From Thermodesulfovibrio sp. (GTDB taxonomy: Bacteria > Nitrospirota > Thermodesulfovibrionia > Thermodesulfovibrionales > UBA6898): DNA of 32,500 nt. The notes beneath the pieces are model-generated. The model worked only from the letters and a program-made list of their open reading frames with translations, was not told the origin of the DNA and ran no database searches. The stretch is from assembly GCA_013824615.1 (NCBI GenBank), contig PNOC01000042.1, forward strand, positions 1-32,500. The letters run 5' to 3'. Shown here piece after piece: positions 1,057 through 19,927 of this stretch. How positions within the stretch are numbered: the first letter of the stretch is position 1; each line of letters starts with the position of its first letter. Made by a program: the position numbers and the translations under genes.

Positions 1057-4000
1057 ATGTTGAAAAGGGTATGTGCGCTCAGTCTGCTGCTGACTGTTTT
1101 CCTGGCAAATTCTGCCTATGCTGCTGAGCAGCGCTTTGCGCTGCTGATTGATTCTGATAATCACAGCAACACCGGCTGCCAGGTCGCGACAGCGAACGGT
1201 TCTGCTGCGGGCATCGAAAAGGTTCTTACTACCATTGTATCAACCACCACAACAACGGCAACCGTTGCCCGCGTCGAGTTGCAGGTCTGCAACGGAGGGT
1301 CGCTGAGTCAGCCCTCGATAATTAGTAACGGCGGCTGGCCAATTGGATTAGGGCTCGGTACGTCCGGGCTGGCTGTGATTGAGACTTCAGTTCCGCTGTC
1401 ATATCTCACACCGACTGCCGGCTCATTGCGCATACTGGCGACAAGTCAGAACGCGGCTGGCGGAGCCGATGCAACTGCAGCATTTCTGGCCGCTGTCGGT
1501 CCACGAGACGTACCATACGCCGTGCCCGTCTCTCCATGGGTGCTGGGGTTGATGGCATCGGCCTTGCTCTTCATTGGCCTTTGGCATCTGCGCGGTGGTC
1601 CGTTGGTTCGTATGCTTGGCTTGATCCTGGTGCTGGTAATCGGGGCCAGTATTGCCCTGGCTGCCACGGTTATTCTTGACGGCAATCCCGGAGACTGGTC
1701 CGGCATTGCGCCGGCGGTTACTGATCCACAAGGCGATGCTCTAATGAATGCCGACATCGTCGCGGTTTTTTATCAGGGCGACCAGACCAATCTTTATTTT
1801 CGTATTGATGCTGATCTGCGGCTGGATGACAGCGCCAACCAGGCTCCGCAAGTCAGTGCCGGACTGAACCAGACCGTGACGTTAAACAGCAACGGCACAT
1901 TGCTGCTGAATCTGTCGGGCAGCATCAGTGACGACGGATTGCCGACACCTGCTGCCTTGACAAGCCTATGGAGCGTGGTCACAGGCCCTGGTCTGCCTGT
2001 GCCATTGTCTTTCGGGGACCCTGCATTGCCGTCTGCGCAGGTGGGTTTTGCCGCACCGGGCAGCTATGTTTTGCGTCTTACCGCGAGCGACGGCGCTTTG
2101 AGTACGAGTCGTGATGTCACCATTACCGTCAGTGCGGCTGCCAATGTCTCTCCGACCTTGATAAATCCAGGGAACCGAACGATGAACTTGGGTGACGTGC
2201 TTAAACTGACGCTGACCACGAACGACAGCAATGTACGAGATACCCTCACCTATTCGCTGCCGCTGGCACCCGTCGGCGCGCAAATGAATCCGGCCGGCGG
2301 CCCTCACTTGCAGTTTGAGCCGCCGGGTCCCGGCAATTTCAATTTCACCGCTCGGGTAGCTGACCAGAATGGCCTGAGTGACCAGAAGAGTTTTACGGTA
2401 ACCGTGCTCGCCGGCAACCACGCACCACAGTTGGTGCAGCCTGCAGACGCTACGCTGCGCGCCGGCACTGCATTCAGTAGAATGCTGGCAGCGACCGATC
2501 CAGATGGGGATAGTCCTCTGGTTTACAACCTTCTCAGCGCGCCAGGCGGAATGAGTGTGTCAGGGGCGACGCTCACGTGGACGCCAACGCTTGCGCAATT
2601 GGGAATCCATACGATAAAGGTGAGCGTGCAAGACCCAGGCGGCGCGTTTGATGCCAAGATGTTCACGCTGAACGTGACCAGCAACGTTGCTCCGAATGCG
2701 AAGGACGACAGTTATATCGTGAAGGCGGGTTCCATTCTCTCCGTCAACGCCGCTAACGGGGTGCTCATTAATGATGCCGATGCTGACGGCGATACGCTGA
2801 CAGCTGCGCGACTCACCGATCCCGGTGCCGGGATGCTCACCTCGTTCAATGGTGATGGCAGCTTCAGCTATCAGGCTCCGGCAACGGTGCCGGGCGATCC
2901 GCTGACCGTGGGCAAGCTTTGGAACGCTAATCACACGTGGTCGTATGGCGCACATGAACTCGTTGCTGATTTGAACGGCGATGGCTATCCGGACGTCATC
3001 AGCCATAACCTCAATGCGGACATCCGGGCCTTGTCAGGCCTCGACGGCAGCCAACTGTGGGCGCTCGATAACACGGGCGCGACCGATTGCGACTGGCAGA
3101 CCGGGTATCCGATGCATCATCGCGTTCTGGCCGATATTGACGACAGCGGCCATCCCGCCTACGTATACACAATCAGGTGTGCGCGCTCGGGCAGCGCATG
3201 GCACGACAACATCATCGCCTACGATCACCTGGGCAAGGTGAAATGGGTGTCGCCACCGCTGTCGAAGCCTCATCCGGATAATTCGCGCGGCGCACCGACG
3301 GTACCGCCGGGAGGATTAACACCGGGCGGCCTGACTTGGCAGCGCGGGCTCAGCGTTGGCCGTCTGACTGCAGCCGGAGCTCCGGTGCTGCTGATGCGCG
3401 CGGAAATCCCCCACAACGATGCTTACACCTACTACTACGATACGTCCAACGTCGGCCACTACGCCGGCTGCCGCGCGGTGACCGGGCTTGTCGCGGATGA
3501 AAACGTCGCCTGCCGGGCAACGTTCATAATCAGTGGTACCGACGGCAGTGTCTTGCAGACGCTGGTCGTGCGCAACCCGGCGGCAACCGCCAGCCGTCCC
3601 GGTGGCCCCAACGCCCTGTGGGAAATGCCGCCGACCGCGATGGACATCGACGGTGATGGGCGCGTGGATCTGGTGTCCGGCACCGAGGTATGGATGCAGA
3701 ACGCTGGGGGCGGTTTTGATTTCGCCTGGCAGCTGGTGAATGCAGTCAATGACACCGCGGTTGCGGATCTCGACGGCGGCGGCAAGGCCGAGATTATCCA
3801 TCTGAGAAGTAGTGGCGAACCCGACGTCAACAATAGCGGAATCTTCATTTACAGCCATGACGGCCAGCTTAAGCGTCGTATCCCGCTACAGGCGTACTGG
3901 TTCACCCCGTTGACGATTGCTGACGTCGATGGCGATGGCCGATCTGATATCGTTCTTGGGGCCGATGGAACAATGTACGCGTTTCGTGACGACGGCCGGC

Positions 4001-7000
4001 CGATCTGGGCATACAAGGTTCCAGAGGAATTGCCCGCCAATCCGGCGCTCGCCTCTATTTACGTCCTGCCGGCGGAGAGTTTCCGCGTGGCCAATGCGGC
4101 ACCCCAGGTATATGATCTGGATGGCGACGGTGTGGCTGAGGTCGTGTTTGCCGCGTACAGTCGTATCATGATACTCAACGGGCGTACCGGTCTGCGCAAG
4201 GTTGACCCGTTCTGGACGTTCAATTCAAGCTATAACGATGTCTCGGCTTTGATGCTGATCGATGCTGATAACGATGGTCACGTCGACATCATGCAGAACG
4301 CGGTTTTCCATTTCAACTGCTTCAATCCTGTTGCAGCGCCGGAGTGTGCCGGCGTGGTTGGTCCCATCGTCTTGAGCGGCGGAAGCAGCAACTGGCTTCC
4401 TGGACCGAAGACGTTTCCGAATGTTCAATATCGCTCGACGGCCATCGACAGCAACGCTCGCGTATTGCACGACACGAAGGTGTCCCGCGTGTTCCGAGTT
4501 CCCGAGCAGCAGGGTGCGGTGCGCGATCCGCGTCTCGCACAGGCAACGAGTTTCACCTACGCCGCGAGCGATGGCGCAGCCACGTCTGCGCCGGCCAAAG
4601 TCATCATAGATATCGTTCCCGACAATCAGCCGCCGGTGTTCACCTCCAGCCCGCCAAAGAGCCTGTTGGAAGTTAGCGGACTTGACGGATGGCCGGCGCC
4701 GAATTATTATGATGTTGCGGCGTATGACCCCGATGCCGGAGACACGATTACCTTTTCGCTCAAAACAGCGCCATACTGGGTGAGCATTGATAGCGCGAGC
4801 GGACGTGTCCGGTTCGAATCGAGTTGCGCCGCGGGTTACCCCGCGTTCTGCAATTGGGGTTGGACAACGGTTATCGTGACAGCAACCGATTCGCGTGGTG
4901 CGAGTACCGATCAGATGTTCATCGTCAATCTGACCAATCAGTCCCGTGTGGTACCCAATGTGGTCGGAATGTCCTTTGACGCTGCGAACACAGCACTCAT
5001 TGCTCAGGACTTGCAGGGAGTGCAGTGGACAGAGTCTTTCTCTGCCCAGCCTCCGGGAACCGTGCTTGCGCAGGACGCGGCGGCCGGTTCCGTCGTCGGG
5101 CGCTTTGATGACATTCGGCTGACCCTGTCGAAAGGGCCCTCCCCGGTGTTGGTGCCGAACGTGGTCGGACTTAGCGAGATAACTGCGCAAACGAAGTTGT
5201 CGAACGCGGGGTTCACCGTCACGCTGAGTCGCACCTTTTCGCAGACGGTGCCGCGCGGACTGGTCATCACCCAAACGCCGAGCGCTGGGAGCGAGGTTGT
5301 TCCGGCAGCAGCACAGATTGTCATTTCTTCAGGCAGTGGGCTTGAATTGCGTCTTGCGCAGGGCGCGGTTGCGGCAGGCGGCATTATCGGTTTCACGGTA
5401 CTCGCATTCAACGCCGATGGCAGCGGCGCATTGACGCCACCGGTGACGATGGCAGTTGCCGTGGCAGGCGGTGCGCTGGGTGCGCTGCCCACGGTGTCGG
5501 GCGCCAATATCGTGACGGACATCAGTACGCTGGGCGGCTTTGAGTTGATTGCCACAGAGACCGGCGGAGGTGGCCGATCTGCCCGGGTGTCGTTCGCCGT
5601 GCTGTTGGCGCCTGCCGCCGGCTTCTCGCCGCAAAAGCCAATCCAGGATTTATTGCAAGTCTTGGCGTTGATGGAGACGCAGCGGCAAACTCTCGATGCG
5701 GCGCGTCTCGCCAACGATGACGTGACGATGCGGAGCACGCTGCGCGCCATGGTGACGACATGGAAAGGCTGGGAGCATAAATTCCTCGCACAGACGCCGC
5801 TGTTGATCACTCCTGACAAGCTGCCGATGACCCCGGCGCAACTCGTCGCGGCAGGGCATGGTCCGAGTGCTGAAGATCTCCTTGACCGCGCTGCGCTGGA
5901 ATCACTGACGCAGGCCATGCGCACGGTTGTTGATCAGTACGGAGGCAGCAGCGTGCCAATCAACGCGGTGCGGACGGCATTAATGGACGCCGCCGCCGCT
6001 GTTAAACCACTCGCTCTTACTGCGCCCTCACTGCATGGCGTGGTCAGCAATCTCGATCACACGACGTACCTCGCCACCCGTGCGCTTCCGCAGAGTCTAT
6101 CACTGCTCATGAGAGAAATTGATCGAACGTTGACGGCAACACCTTTGTTGGCGGCCAGTGCCTCCGCAAGTCGGTCATTTTCCGGTAGTGGCAACATCAC
6201 CGAGCTGCGTGCTGATCCTACGGTCCATACGAATGCTTTTTCCGGCAGCCTCACCGACTTGACTGCTACCACCTCGATCCATATGGATTTGGTGAAGGAC
6301 TACTACGGCCCCATTATCTGGAAGGTGGTGTCTTCGGCCGCCACGCTGGCCGCACAAGGCTTGCTGCGCGAGGCCGGCATCACCGGTGAAACGGCACTGG
6401 CGGGCATGGTTACCGGCGCTTCGCAATCGTTCCATATTTTCGAGGCGCCAGGTACCTTCATCGAACAAATCGGCGCCTCCGAATTGCCGGAGGAAACGCA
6501 GGTGTGGATTGTCGGACCGAGTGCGATTGAGTCGGCCATTGAACAAATCAGAGGCCTCATCAAGGGTTTTTCGGCGCTCAAGGATTTGAGCAGTTTGAAC
6601 TCGCAGTTAGCTGCCTCGAACGCAACTGAGGCGCAGAATCTGTTAAAGGGGAACTTAACCAAGATCACCGGTGGCTTCAAGGACTTTTCCGAACAACTCT
6701 ATGCGGCCACCAACAGCGTCGTCGAATGGCCCGGAGTTGCAGGCAAGGGGCAGGGTTTCTTCCTGGTGGGAAATCAGGTGGAGCGGGGTTGTATCTTTAC
6801 CTTACATCCTGAGTGTAAGCAAATCTTCTTTGGATCTGGATTTCCCGCAGCAGAAAAGTGTGATCCGAGGAGCTTCTGTACTCCTCTCGCGCTTTTGGTA
6901 ATAACCTGGACTCCGTCGACTATGGCCTTCGGTGCCGACGCAGTCCCATTTATTCCCAAGTACGAGCTTCCATGCGCGAAGGATCCCGTGTTCGGAATAT

Positions 7001-7038
7001 CACTGCCAGGGGTGCCACCCGGCTGTACCGCAGATTGA
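1057..7038 (+). CDS. Giant secreted multidomain protein: internal IPTL-like sorting signal, FG-GAP propeller, PASTA domains
   Basis: 1993 residues. Signal peptide 1-22, probable cut after AYA. Residues 156-180 carry VPVSPW, a hydrophobic stretch and LRGG, resembling an IPTL-CTERM exosortase signal. A second membrane segment (184-203) ends in ALA, followed by a DOMON/CBM9-like beta stretch (204-258). Then a PKD-like domain (about 260-358), two cadherin/Ig-like domains (to about 545), and the start of a Big_9/VCBS-type domain (548-618). Seven FG-GAP calcium motifs (DxDGDGxxD type) between 635 and 1078 suggest a seven-bladed propeller. The Big_9 end (FTYAASDG, about 1164), another cadherin-like domain and two PASTA domains (about 1297-1362 and 1365-1428) follow. 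The rest is an Ig-like stretch, a helical stretch from about 1524 and an unrecognised C-terminus with six Cys (about 1912-1991). Likely exported and surface-associated or cut; binding target unknown. Arg codons are mostly CGN, unlike the AGG/AGA-rich neighbours, suggesting transfer. Confidence 0.85.
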   Translation: MLKRVCALSLLLTVFLANSAYAAEQRFALLIDSDNHSNTGCQVATANGSAAGIEKVLTTIVSTTTTTATVARVELQVCNGGSLSQPSIISNGGWPIGLGLGTSGLAVIETSVPLSYLTPTAGSLRILATSQNAAGGADATAAFLAAVGPRDVPYAVPVSPWVLGLMASALLFIGLWHLRGGPLVRMLGLILVLVIGASIALAATVILDGNPGDWSGIAPAVTDPQGDALMNADIVAVFYQGDQTNLYFRIDADLRLDDSANQAPQVSAGLNQTVTLNSNGTLLLNLSGSISDDGLPTPAALTSLWSVVTGPGLPVPLSFGDPALPSAQVGFAAPGSYVLRLTASDGALSTSRDVTITVSAAANVSPTLINPGNRTMNLGDVLKLTLTTNDSNVRDTLTYSLPLAPVGAQMNPAGGPHLQFEPPGPGNFNFTARVADQNGLSDQKSFTVTVLAGNHAPQLVQPADATLRAGTAFSRMLAATDPDGDSPLVYNLLSAPGGMSVSGATLTWTPTLAQLGIHTIKVSVQDPGGAFDAKMFTLNVTSNVAPNAKDDSYIVKAGSILSVNAANGVLINDADADGDTLTAARLTDPGAGMLTSFNGDGSFSYQAPATVPGDPLTVGKLWNANHTWSYGAHELVADLNGDGYPDVISHNLNADIRALSGLDGSQLWALDNTGATDCDWQTGYPMHHRVLADIDDSGHPAYVYTIRCARSGSAWHDNIIAYDHLGKVKWVSPPLSKPHPDNSRGAPTVPPGGLTPGGLTWQRGLSVGRLTAAGAPVLLMRAEIPHNDAYTYYYDTSNVGHYAGCRAVTGLVADENVACRATFIISGTDGSVLQTLVVRNPAATASRPGGPNALWEMPPTAMDIDGDGRVDLVSGTEVWMQNAGGGFDFAWQLVNAVNDTAVADLDGGGKAEIIHLRSSGEPDVNNSGIFIYSHDGQLKRRIPLQAYWFTPLTIADVDGDGRSDIVLGADGTMYAFRDDGRPIWAYKVPEELPANPALASIYVLPAESFRVANAAPQVYDLDGDGVAEVVFAAYSRIMILNGRTGLRKVDPFWTFNSSYNDVSALMLIDADNDGHVDIMQNAVFHFNCFNPVAAPECAGVVGPIVLSGGSSNWLPGPKTFPNVQYRSTAIDSNARVLHDTKVSRVFRVPEQQGAVRDPRLAQATSFTYAASDGAATSAPAKVIIDIVPDNQPPVFTSSPPKSLLEVSGLDGWPAPNYYDVAAYDPDAGDTITFSLKTAPYWVSIDSASGRVRFESSCAAGYPAFCNWGWTTVIVTATDSRGASTDQMFIVNLTNQSRVVPNVVGMSFDAANTALIAQDLQGVQWTESFSAQPPGTVLAQDAAAGSVVGRFDDIRLTLSKGPSPVLVPNVVGLSEITAQTKLSNAGFTVTLSRTFSQTVPRGLVITQTPSAGSEVVPAAAQIVISSGSGLELRLAQGAVAAGGIIGFTVLAFNADGSGALTPPVTMAVAVAGGALGALPTVSGANIVTDISTLGGFELIATETGGGGRSARVSFAVLLAPAAGFSPQKPIQDLLQVLALMETQRQTLDAARLANDDVTMRSTLRAMVTTWKGWEHKFLAQTPLLITPDKLPMTPAQLVAAGHGPSAEDLLDRAALESLTQAMRTVVDQYGGSSVPINAVRTALMDAAAAVKPLALTAPSLHGVVSNLDHTTYLATRALPQSLSLLMREIDRTLTATPLLAASASASRSFSGSGNITELRADPTVHTNAFSGSLTDLTATTSIHMDLVKDYYGPIIWKVVSSAATLAAQGLLREAGITGETALAGMVTGASQSFHIFEAPGTFIEQIGASELPEETQVWIVGPSAIESAIEQIRGLIKGFSALKDLSSLNSQLAASNATEAQNLLKGNLTKITGGFKDFSEQLYAATNSVVEWPGVAGKGQGFFLVGNQVERGCIFTLHPECKQIFFGSGFPAAEKCDPRSFCTPLALLVITWTPSTMAFGADAVPFIPKYELPCAKDPVFGISLPGVPPGCTAD

Positions 7039-7086: not shown

Positions 7087-7100
7087 TATAATGCAGCATG
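7087..7100 (+). promoter_or_regulatory. Consensus -10 box abutting the mgtC-like start codon (possible leaderless mRNA)
   Basis: A perfect TATAAT lies at 7087-7092, only five bases before the ATG at 7098. Transcription from it would start at or next to the A of the start codon. No Shine-Dalgarno sequence precedes the ATG. I find no good -35 at 16-18 bp: CTGACA at 7052-7057 is 29 bp away. The promoter is therefore suggested by position and the perfect hexamer only. Confidence 0.4.
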
Positions 7101-7769
7101 ATACCAACCTATGAAATAATCTTCAAGCTGCTCCTGGGCACCCTGCTTGGCGGGATTATAGGGTTTGAGCGCCAGACACACGGCCGGCCGGCCGGGTTTA
7201 GGACGCAGCTCCTGGTCTGCGTGGCATGCGTGCTGATCATGATGATCTCTGAAAGCTATTACAGCAAGGACCTCGCGAACCCGAATTTCACAAGAATCGA
7301 CCCGACGCGTCTTGCTGCCGGAGCCATGACCGGAGTCGGTTTTCTGGGGGCAGGGGTGATACTCAAGACCGGCGTGTCGATCCAGGGCCTGACGACCGCA
7401 GCCTGCATCTGGATCGTCTCTGCCATCGGACTGGCGATTGGTGCCGGGCAGTATGTGGCCGGCATAGCTGGCTTCATAATAACTTTTTTCTCCCTCTGGG
7501 TCCTTCGGCTGTTTGAATCCAGGATCCCGACGATGATCTACAAATACGTCACCCTGGTCACGGATGAACGGGGTGATGAACAGGCGATCGCGGATCTTTT
7601 TAAAGAGAGAGGCTTTAAGATCATCAAGATGGATTACAAAATCAAGGTCCCCGAAAAGGAGAAGACCTATGTCTTTACCGTCACGGCCAAAGACGGGGTC
7701 AGGATGAGGGACATCATCGACGATGTCACCGGGCTTGCCGGTTCCAAGAAATTAGAGATCTCGAGCTGA
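7098..7769 (+). CDS. MgtC/SapB family inner-membrane protein
   Basis: 223 residues. The N-terminal two thirds are hydrophobic with the family signatures GFERQTHGRPAGFRT (about 22-36) and GVGFLGAGVILK in the third membrane region. About four to five transmembrane helices end near residue 145. A soluble C-terminal domain of about 75 residues resembles the ACT-like domain of long MgtC proteins. MgtC proteins help bacteria cope with low Mg2+ and, in pathogens, inhibit the F1Fo ATPase. Many environmental homologues have no assigned role, so the family is sure but the function is not. The 3' end overlaps the convergent Nudix gene by 18 bases. The start has a -10 box but no ribosome site close upstream. 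Confidence 0.9.
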   Translation: MIPTYEIIFKLLLGTLLGGIIGFERQTHGRPAGFRTQLLVCVACVLIMMISESYYSKDLANPNFTRIDPTRLAAGAMTGVGFLGAGVILKTGVSIQGLTTAACIWIVSAIGLAIGAGQYVAGIAGFIITFFSLWVLRLFESRIPTMIYKYVTLVTDERGDEQAIADLFKERGFKIIKMDYKIKVPEKEKTYVFTVTAKDGVRMRDIIDDVTGLAGSKKLEISS

Positions 7770-17061: not shown

Positions 17062-19152
17062 TCAGTGTGAGGGTTTGAATTCCTCGACGAGCTTTTTGAA
17101 GTCCTCTTCACCCATTTCCTTTGTCAGGTCGGTGATCAGGCTATGCACAATATTCACATTCGGGGAGCCCAGCTTTTCGAATATATCGAGTGCAACGAGA
17201 TAATCGATGAAGGCATCGACATAGTTCTTCTTCAGCTGCATGACTCTGCCGACCATGCCGATGCTGCTGCCGATACCTGAAATATCCCCGACTTTGCGGG
17301 CGATCTCAAGTGCCTTCTGGTAGAAATCAAGCGCCTGATCATAATCGCCCCTGCTCTGGTGGACGATGCCGATCTGGTGGTAACTCTTCGAGACCCCGGC
17401 GATGTCCCCGATCTTTTCGGCGATCTCCCCCGCCTTCCTGAAGTGTTCCAGGGCATCCTGAAAATCACCCTTGTTCTGGTGGACCATGCCGATCTGATGG
17501 TAGCTCTTGGAGATGCCTGAGATGTCACCTATCTTGCCGGCAATCTCCAGGGCCCTTTCATAGAAGGTGAGCGCCTGATCGTAATCGCCCCTGCTCTGAT
17601 GGACTATGCCCATATTGTGGCAGCTCATCGCCACTTCCGATTTGTCCCCAATCCTCCCGGCAATCTGGAGTGCATTCTGATGATATTCGAGTGCCCGGTC
17701 ATTGACACCTCTGCTCTGATATATAATGCCTATCTGATTGCAGCTCCTGGCAATGCCGGCATCATCTTTCAGTTTGGTGGCAATATCGAGTGCCTTCTCC
17801 GAGAGCTCCAGGGCCCTCTCATAATCGCCCTTGAGCTTATGCAGGAGTCCCATCTGGCCATAGATCCTGAGGATGCCGTAAAAGTCGGCCGAGTTCTGTT
17901 TTATCTCAAGTGCTTTGTTGGAAAGATCCAGCGCGCGGTCATAGTCCCCGCGTTTCTGGTAGACGATGCTGATGTTCTGGTAGCTGCCCGACTCCATCGC
18001 AATGTCCCCCATCTGCCCGGCAATCTCCAGCGCCTTCTGATGGTACTCCAGGGCGAAGTCATAATCTCCCCTGTTTTGATAGACAATGCCGATCTGGTTG
18101 TAACTCCGTGAGATAGCGGCCATATCCGCTATTTTTTCGGCGATTGCGAGGGCCTTCTGGTGGTACTCGAACGCCTGGTCATAATCACCGCGCTTCTGAT
18201 GAACAATACCGGTCTGGTGGAAGCTCCTGGAGATGCCCGCCTTGTCTCCGATCTTCTCAACTATTGCAAGGGCCTTCTGATGATACTCGAACGCCTGGTC
18301 GTAGTCGCCGCGTTTCTGGTGGATAATGCCGAGCTGGTTATACCCTTTGGCCACCTCTGCCAGGTCTCCGATCTTCCTGGCCGTCTCCAGTGCCCTCTCG
18401 GATAATTCCAGCGCACGGTCATAATCTCCCTTATCCTGATATAGCAGGCCAAGCTGATTATGGCTCATCGAGATGCCAGCCTGGTCTCCAAGCCTGGTGG
18501 CAATTTCGAGTGCCTTTTCAGAAAGCTCAAAGGCCTTCTCGTAATCTCCCCTGAGCTTGTGCAGAAGGCCCATCTGGCCATAGATTCTGAGAATGCCGTA
18601 AAAGTCGGCCGAGCTCTGTTTTATCTCGAGTGCCTTACGGGACAAATCCAATGCCTGGTCATAATCACCGCGCTTCTGATGGACAATACCGATGTTCTGA
18701 TAGCTGACCGACTCCATGGCGATATCCCCTGTGCTTCCGGCCAGCTTTAGCGCCTTTTGATGGCACTCCAGTGCCAGATCATAGTCTCCCCTGTTTTGGT
18801 AGACGATGCCGATTTGATTATAGCACCGGGAGACAGTGTCCATATCCCCGATCTGTTCAGCCAGCGCAAGTGCCTTCTGATGATACGCGAACGCCTGGTC
18901 ATAGTCGCCGCGCTTCTGAAGGACTTTGCCGGTTTGATGGAAGCTCCTTGAAATACCTGCCTGGTCCCCGTTTTTTTCAGCTATCTCCAGTGCTTTCTGG
19001 TGGTATTCGAATGCCCGGTCGTAGTCACTGCGTTTCTGATGGATAATACCAAGCTGATTATAACTCTTTTCTACCTCAGCCAGATTGCCTGTTTTCTCTG
19101 CCATCTCCAGTGTCTTCTCGGACAACTCCAGCGCACGATCGTAATCAGTCAC
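17062..19152 (-). CDS. Cytoplasmic tetratricopeptide protein of about 17 forty-residue repeats
   Basis: 696 residues, almost wholly made of about 17 units of 40 residues (TPR_12/kinesin-light-chain type, core GDYDxALExxxKALEIAxKxGD and GIVHQKRG). No signal peptide, membrane segment or catalytic domain is visible, so it is probably a cytoplasmic protein-binding scaffold. Units 1-6 and 7-12 are near-copies in order; for example units 5 and 11 both contain SADFYGILRIYGQMGLLHKL. The last unit degenerates into an acidic tail. I place the start at GTG 19152, with AGGGAG six bases upstream, 13 bases after the NIF3 stop, rather than TTG 19191 inside the NIF3 gene. LGN- and kinesin-light-chain-like bacterial TPR proteins often bind partner peptides; the partner is unknown. 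Confidence 0.88.
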   Translation of the reverse strand: MTDYDRALELSEKTLEMAEKTGNLAEVEKSYNQLGIIHQKRSDYDRAFEYHQKALEIAEKNGDQAGISRSFHQTGKVLQKRGDYDQAFAYHQKALALAEQIGDMDTVSRCYNQIGIVYQNRGDYDLALECHQKALKLAGSTGDIAMESVSYQNIGIVHQKRGDYDQALDLSRKALEIKQSSADFYGILRIYGQMGLLHKLRGDYEKAFELSEKALEIATRLGDQAGISMSHNQLGLLYQDKGDYDRALELSERALETARKIGDLAEVAKGYNQLGIIHQKRGDYDQAFEYHQKALAIVEKIGDKAGISRSFHQTGIVHQKRGDYDQAFEYHQKALAIAEKIADMAAISRSYNQIGIVYQNRGDYDFALEYHQKALEIAGQMGDIAMESGSYQNISIVYQKRGDYDRALDLSNKALEIKQNSADFYGILRIYGQMGLLHKLKGDYERALELSEKALDIATKLKDDAGIARSCNQIGIIYQSRGVNDRALEYHQNALQIAGRIGDKSEVAMSCHNMGIVHQSRGDYDQALTFYERALEIAGKIGDISGISKSYHQIGMVHQNKGDFQDALEHFRKAGEIAEKIGDIAGVSKSYHQIGIVHQSRGDYDQALDFYQKALEIARKVGDISGIGSSIGMVGRVMQLKKNYVDAFIDYLVALDIFEKLGSPNVNIVHSLITDLTKEMGEEDFKKLVEEFKPSH
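17707..19146 (-). repeat. 720-bp internal tandem duplication within the TPR gene
   Basis: The coding block 19146-18427 (TPR units 1-6) is repeated as 18426-17707 (units 7-12). Matching landmarks sit exactly 720 bases apart: AAAGTCGGCCGAG at 17881 and again at 18601. The copies differ at many third positions, so the duplication is not very recent. Confidence 0.8.
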
Positions 19153-19165
19153 AGCATTCTCCCTG

Positions 19166-19927
19166 TTATAACCCGGTAGGGTGATCAACAAAGACCGTCT
19201 CTGTTGAAAACTTTCTGCTGAGCATTTCTCCTGCTGCTCTGACCCCTAAGGTCTCGGTCGCGTAGTGACCGGCGAATATAAGGTTGATCTTCAGTTCTTC
19301 GGCAAGAGTATAAGCACTATGAGAAGGTTCACCCGTCAGAAAGGTGTCGATGTCATGCTCTTCTGCATCATGGAGTGCTGACCAGCCGCCTCCGGAGACG
19401 ATGCCGATATTTTTTACCTTCCGGTTGAAATCAATGGCCTGCGACTGCACGCCGAGTTTTTTGTCAACACGCGCTTTGAAATCATTCAGAGATATTTCCC
19501 TGCTGAGGTGTCCGCGATACCCGATTCTCTTGCCGTGGTATTCTCCAAACTCCCCGGTCTTCCTGAGTCCGAGTAGACGCAAAAGCTGCACATTATTGCC
19601 ATATTCGGGATGCCAGTCCAGCGGCAGGTGACATGCGTACAGGGAAATATTATGGTCGATCAACACTTTTATCCGTTTTCTGAGGATGCCGGTAATCGAC
19701 TTGACTCCGCCCCATATCAACCCATGGTGTACCAGCAGAAAGTCCACCTGCTGTTCAGCTGCCTTTTCGAAAACAGCGTCGCAGGCATCGACCGCAAGCC
19801 CGATTTTCCTCACTTCCCGGCTGCCTTCGACCTGAAGTCCGTTGGCGCTTTCATCCCGGGGAAATTCAGACAGAGAGAGTTCGTGATTCAGAAAGGAAAC
19901 AAGTTTTTTGAGCAGCAGACTGTTCAT
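19166..19927 (-). CDS. NIF3/DUF34-family metal-binding protein
   Basis: 253 residues, the length of the short YbgI-like form. Dinuclear metal ligands: LVHHGLIWGG with H67 and H68 in the N-terminal half, and LIFAGHYATETLG with H221 and E225 in the C-terminal half. NANGLQVEG-like text near residue 29 (ESANGLQVEG) is also diagnostic. The family is often annotated GTP cyclohydrolase 1 type 2 but its cellular role is uncertain; metal handling or chaperoning has been proposed. The start at 19927 lies nine bases after the LapAB stop, with no clear ribosome site, so translation may be coupled. The TPR gene follows 13 bases downstream. Confidence 0.92.
   Translation of the reverse strand: MNSLLLKKLVSFLNHELSLSEFPRDESANGLQVEGSREVRKIGLAVDACDAVFEKAAEQQVDFLLVHHGLIWGGVKSITGILRKRIKVLIDHNISLYACHLPLDWHPEYGNNVQLLRLLGLRKTGEFGEYHGKRIGYRGHLSREISLNDFKARVDKKLGVQSQAIDFNRKVKNIGIVSGGGWSALHDAEEHDIDTFLTGEPSHSAYTLAEELKINLIFAGHYATETLGVRAAGEMLSRKFSTETVFVDHPTGL

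Follow-up and report, generated by a model that had tools for sequence, protein, structure and literature searches.

A giant secreted protein interrupted by a transmembrane hairpin

The window analysed here, a stretch of 32,500 nt, carries on its forward strand an open reading frame (1057-7038, ATG start) that encodes a giant secreted protein of 1993 aa. It lies on contig C42 of a 3.6 Mb genome that is 100% complete and assembled in 96 contigs. The gene is flanked on the same strand by genes for a diphthine-ammonia-ligase-like ATP pyrophosphatase (140-838) and an MgtC family protein (7098-7769), to which a functional link is not obvious. Elsewhere in the window, positions 17062-19191 of the reverse strand encode a very regular, long TPR_12-type tetratricopeptide repeat protein of 709 aa, listed with a TTG start. 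The features of the giant ORF are as follows:

1057..1122, + strand: signal peptide 1, MLKRVCALSLLLTVFLANSAYA, residues 1-22, with a K/R n-region, a hydrophobic core and A-Y-A in the sequence
1123..1497, + strand: pre-hairpin piece, LIDSDNxxxTGC ... VIETSVPLS, residues 23-147, from the profile match and AF2 strands
1519..1599, + strand: IPTL-CTERM-like segment, VPVSPW plus transmembrane (TM) helix 1 plus LRGG, residues 155-181, from sequence and a weak NF033207 match
1588..1614, + strand: LRGGPLVRM, the basic turn of the hairpin, with a predicted location in the cytoplasm; 2 to 5 basic loop residues in 9/9 members
1600..1662, + strand: TM helix 2, a putative internal signal peptide, residues about 184-203, hydropathy 2.87, A-x-A↓A
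1663..1821, + strand: post-hairpin piece, TVILDGNPGDWSGI ... NLYFRIDADLR, with a DGNPGDW start, residues 203-255, from hhalign and AF2 strands
1822..7035, + strand: cargo, from Pfam and NCBIfam scans and sequence

Within the hairpin, whose topology was read from hydropathy and charge, VPVSPW occupies residues 156-161 (nt 1522-1539) and LRGG residues 178-181 (nt 1588-1599), while helix 2 ends in the junction A-L-A↓A (residues 200-203, nt 1654-1665). Counted up to the proline motif, the first soluble piece extends over residues 23-155. In the AF2 model of the module, helix 2 covers module residues 160-180, corresponding to residues 182-202 of the protein. About 1790 soluble residues follow the hairpin, about 1740 of them beyond residue 255. 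In this cargo, Pfam and NCBIfam scans identified a PKD domain (268-358), an Ig/cadherin-like region (454-605), FG-GAP repeats (best stretch 1020-1078) and two PASTA domains, one of them at 1364-1423. Neither a sorting signal nor a TM segment was seen in the sequence at the C-terminus of the cargo. An earlier note on this DNA had described the protein as a signal peptide, a short soluble piece, two hydrophobic stretches and a long second soluble region. The ORF sequence bears this anatomy out, with coordinates accurate to a residue or two.

The module is conserved in nine genomes in front of different cargos

A search with residues 1-259 as query returned two relatives with the same order of elements. 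Scanning 84,980 species with a profile then brought in four more from Beta- and Gammaproteobacteria, including Comamonas badia DSM 17552, and whole-genome searches contributed two further relatives (L096 and L110). The module was found in nine genomes of Nitrospirota, Beta- and Gammaproteobacteria; plasmid collections and a viral-contig collection held no relatives of it. In all nine the order is signal peptide, soluble piece, proline motif with TM helix, basic loop, signal-peptide-like TM helix and DGNxxDW piece. Since this order is conserved in eight genomes other than that of the window, and since eight of the nine junctions behind helix 2 read A-x-A↓A, the hairpin layout is more than chance. 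A domain-swap or frameshift artefact was ruled out, the ORF being open in nine genomes including that of a DSM isolate.

The proline motif is variable (IPTLSPLW, IPLLSPW, VPLSPW, IPFLSPH, VPVSPW, IPALNKTG, VPGLSGRG and IPFLTF). Its proline is conserved in every member, and the W-G of IPTL signals is lost in L082, L083 and L110. The cargos differ as well. L086 is a PKD/PASTA giant like that of the window, with which it shares 30% identity across an alignment of about 1,670 positions, and elsewhere the module precedes RHS repeats (L085) or a subtilisin-like protease (L084), as judged from labels read from the sequences. In L082 and L083, both from Nitrospirota, the protein stops right after the post-hairpin piece, which with its length of about 55 residues would scarcely make a separate protein. 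In L085, from a betaproteobacterial MAG, the module is followed, downstream of position 5350, by a long RHS/YD-repeat protein whose ORF leaves the contig; the C-terminus of such a protein would need to be free.

The mid-protein segment compared with curated sorting-signal models

The earlier note had read VPVSPW, helix 1 and LRGG as an exosortase-type, IPTL-like sorting signal and had mentioned proteins annotated as cut in the middle by XrtH. Such a family does exist (NF033207, midcut_by_XrtH; cut-off 45 bits), and it was the sole curated family touched by the 69-aa segment of the window. The match reached 12.7 bits (E 0.095, profile positions 34-84), which is below the cut-off, and IPTL-CTERM (TIGR04174; cut-off 20.5 bits) was absent from the matches of this segment at E ≤ 10. 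VPVSPW is one residue shorter than P-x-L-x-x-W-G. Relatives scored 12.8-36.1 bits on NF033207, so that no module member attained 45 bits, and L085 gave no match to this model. The best of them, L084, came near the cut-off with 36.1 bits, and its mid-protein segment exceeded the IPTL-CTERM cut-off (28.9 against 20.5 bits). Thus, the family models suggested in the earlier note did not recognize the window's own segment at their cut-offs, while one of them did recognize a relative.

All nine module members share with NF033207 a mid-protein IPTL-like segment followed by a second TM helix; the profile alignment spans both helices and, for L083, L084 and L096, also takes in the beginning of the DGNxxDW piece, and exosortase H occurs in the same genome as the module (8/8 carriers tested, see below). 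In addition to the scores, the module differs from this family in that the last third of the profile (positions 120-174) matches HYDIN-like repeats ('NFGNVTVG...'), which are absent from the module. By its cut-off, the module is outside NF033207, yet it probably works like a member, as a variant of midcut-by-XrtH. With IPTL-CTERM and exosortase H systems it has in common the proline motif, the TM helix, the basic cluster and XrtH in the same genome, and L084 lies above the cut-off. In contrast to these systems, the signal of the module is located about 1800 residues before the C-terminus with a putative internal signal peptide behind it; in the window it occupies residues 155-181 of 1993 and is therefore not at the extreme C-terminus. 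No publication dealing with midcut proteins or with substrates of XrtH emerged from literature searches; the one paper on IPTL-CTERM that did (PMC8671808) concerns an S-layer protein of Methylomirabilis whose signal is C-terminal.

Exosortase H co-occurs with the module

Outside the window, the genome encodes exosortase H (G000:C26), which scored 93.4 bits on TIGR04177 (cut-off 86 bits) and carries the Cys/Arg/His motifs GCNGLEA, NILRI and HIYIAQG. Furthermore, six IPTL-CTERM matches above the cut-off were found in this genome, e.g. VPTMNEWGMIFFMLIAGLAAVLQITRRRA at a C-terminus; the segment of the window was not among them. A search for this gene had been proposed in the earlier note, and its guess that exosortase H is the enzyme is likely right.

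XrtH was counted in eight of the nine carriers, all except G843 (L110), and exceeded the TIGR04177 cut-off in 8/8 (seven first, then G627). Background frequencies were 23/396 genomes in the phylum of the window and 9/274 in the class of Comamonas badia. The carriers inside these samples all possess XrtH (3/3 and 2/2), corresponding to hypergeometric probabilities of 1.7e-4 and 9.6e-4 if kinship is ignored.

Two other proteins of this genome were noted. A second exosortase/archaeosortase-family protein (L002, G000:C10:47129-47506; open frame of 358 aa) has the Cys/Arg/His motifs and a long C-terminal membrane extension; its best model is XrtH at 70.7-72.7 bits, below the cut-off. L007 (G000:C32:11674-11733) combines a signal peptide, a ubiquitin-like sequence and a C-terminal IPTL-CTERM tail, and represents an exported bacterial ubiquitin-like protein.

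The pieces on either side of the hairpin resemble halves of one permuted domain

Natural-order versions of the domain were found in L088, L098 and L104, and later in L078 and L111-L116. Compared with natural-order domains, the post-hairpin piece aligned to columns 1-45 (hhalign, E 3.6e-9) and the pre-hairpin piece to columns 54-137 (profile comparison, P 0.0029). The match of the pre-hairpin piece, the C-half, is modest when taken alone (hhalign probability 11-21%); it outscored 200/200 profiles with shuffled columns in both natural sets used, in the wider of which it was mostly confined to the IExxVP region. The natural-order invariants D6, G7, D11, W12, D36 and E116 correspond to D186, G187, D191, W192, D220 and E87 of the module. 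Neither Pfam nor NCBIfam gave a match to the module with its halves re-ordered, and the permutation therefore rests on the profile comparison with natural-order relatives. A sequence search of the PDB returned nothing meaningful.

AF2 modelled the module with a pTM of 0.78 and a pLDDT of 85 (about 91 in the post-hairpin strands), and the natural-order domain with a pTM of 0.78 and a pLDDT of 76. After rotation, the order of elements is equal in both models: the DWxGI helix, two long strands and the LxxDxDN strand, followed by further strands, the (I/V)ExxVP strand, a short helix and a strand. These pTM and pLDDT values suggest that both halves pack into one sandwich. The natural-order model aligned to PDB structures with Z 8-10 over 127-150 residues, matching CBM9 (1i82, Z 9.3), the gamma subunit of ethylbenzene dehydrogenase, EbdH gamma (2ivf, Z 9.3), and dopamine beta-hydroxylase (4zel, Z 8.1), and was therefore assigned a CBM9/DOMON-type fold. 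The module model itself gave only weak PDB rows with Foldseek and VIA, none of them significant. This is expected from a sequential aligner because the module is a predicted permutant, and it is neither evidence for permutation nor a sign of a new fold.

Altogether, profiles and models indicate that the pre-hairpin piece is the C-terminal half and the post-hairpin piece the N-terminal half of one CBM9/DOMON-type beta-sandwich, and that this domain is a circular permutant with the TM hairpin placed across its native termini. Its likeness to CBM9, EbdH gamma and dopamine beta-hydroxylase extends over both halves and, after rotation, over the order of secondary structure, with the invariants found in its natural-order relatives; it differs from them by the circular permutation and by the putatively cleavable hairpin. 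The strongest anatomical argument is provided by L082 and L083: since these proteins end in an orphan N-half, the halves probably need each other.

A self-splitting attachment module and alternative readings

We propose, with a probability of about 0.5, that the first 255 residues constitute a self-splitting surface-attachment module from which the hairpin is excised while the two halves stay clipped together. Signal peptide 1 would export the first soluble piece. The IPTL-like and the signal-peptide-like helix would form an inner-membrane hairpin with the basic turn in the cytoplasm, a topology by which export would extend to the second piece and its cargo. On the periplasmic side, the two halves would close over the hairpin into a complete domain. 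Exosortase H would cut at VPVSPW and might, in the manner of sortase-like enzymes, transfer the small piece to an acceptor in the envelope. Signal peptidase would cut at ALA↓A, and the hairpin would thereby be removed. The giant protein would then be held non-covalently by the anchored piece of roughly 14 kDa, and a C-terminal sorting signal would be turned into an N-terminal attachment that leaves the C-terminus of the cargo free. Both cleavages, the transfer to an anchor and the persistence of the clip are proposed by analogy with known exosortase and signal-peptidase biology. More tentatively, we regard the cleavable exosortase hairpin in a permuted beta-sandwich, whose chains would be joined by complementation after the XrtH and signal-peptidase cuts, as a portable N-terminal clip for unrelated cargos.

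If this is true, a machine for C-terminal sorting anchors a protein by its N-terminus with a split permuted domain as clip, the clip would serve cargos as unrelated as PKD/PASTA giants, RHS proteins and subtilisins, and the curated mid-cut model overlooks an entire architecture. The clip model makes the sharp prediction of two fragments that co-purify. The module, which is present in the cultivated Comamonas badia DSM 17552, is moreover a tractable substrate for establishing where XrtH cuts and what it attaches.

The main rival is that the hairpin stays uncut as a plain two-helix inner-membrane anchor across the native termini of the permuted CBM9-like domain, leaving one chain on the periplasmic face. 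A permuted domain closed over an intact hairpin would be stable by itself, and the loss of W-G in L082, L083 and L110 fits this reading, as do the scores of the window segment below the IPTL and mid-cut models. However, XrtH, rare in the background, accompanies the module in every carrier tested, L084 exceeds the IPTL cut-off and A-x-A↓A is kept in 8/9 members; we consider this rival unlikely.

The earlier note had suggested a possible polyprotein, i.e. one translation product split into a small anchored protein and a large released or second-signal one. The split itself gains from XrtH and the IPTL-CTERM matches in the genome, from the presence of both cleavage signals and from a concept already known as NF033207. 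That XrtH and signal peptidase yield two independent exported proteins which separate is improbable, since each piece is only part of a domain, the parts are complementary, and L082 and L083 would be left with an orphan second product about 55 residues long. Because the pieces are probably complementary halves, the picture of a small anchored and a large released product changes to one in which the small piece is anchored and holds the large piece by the clip.

Even less probable is that signal peptidase is the sole cutter, with helix 2 as internal signal peptide, helix 1 as ordinary anchor of the first piece and exosortase H uninvolved. The stronger conservation of A-x-A↓A compared with the P-motif would agree with this, but the proline retained in all members, the IPTL match of L084 and the co-occurrence with XrtH argue for participation of the exosortase, as in the clip model. 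Separate translation of the large protein from an internal start is very improbable: no clear ribosome-binding site lies upstream of ATG 1612 (residue 186), and methionine is absent there in several relatives, e.g. L083, L085 and L086, although in the window this ATG does stand just before helix 2.
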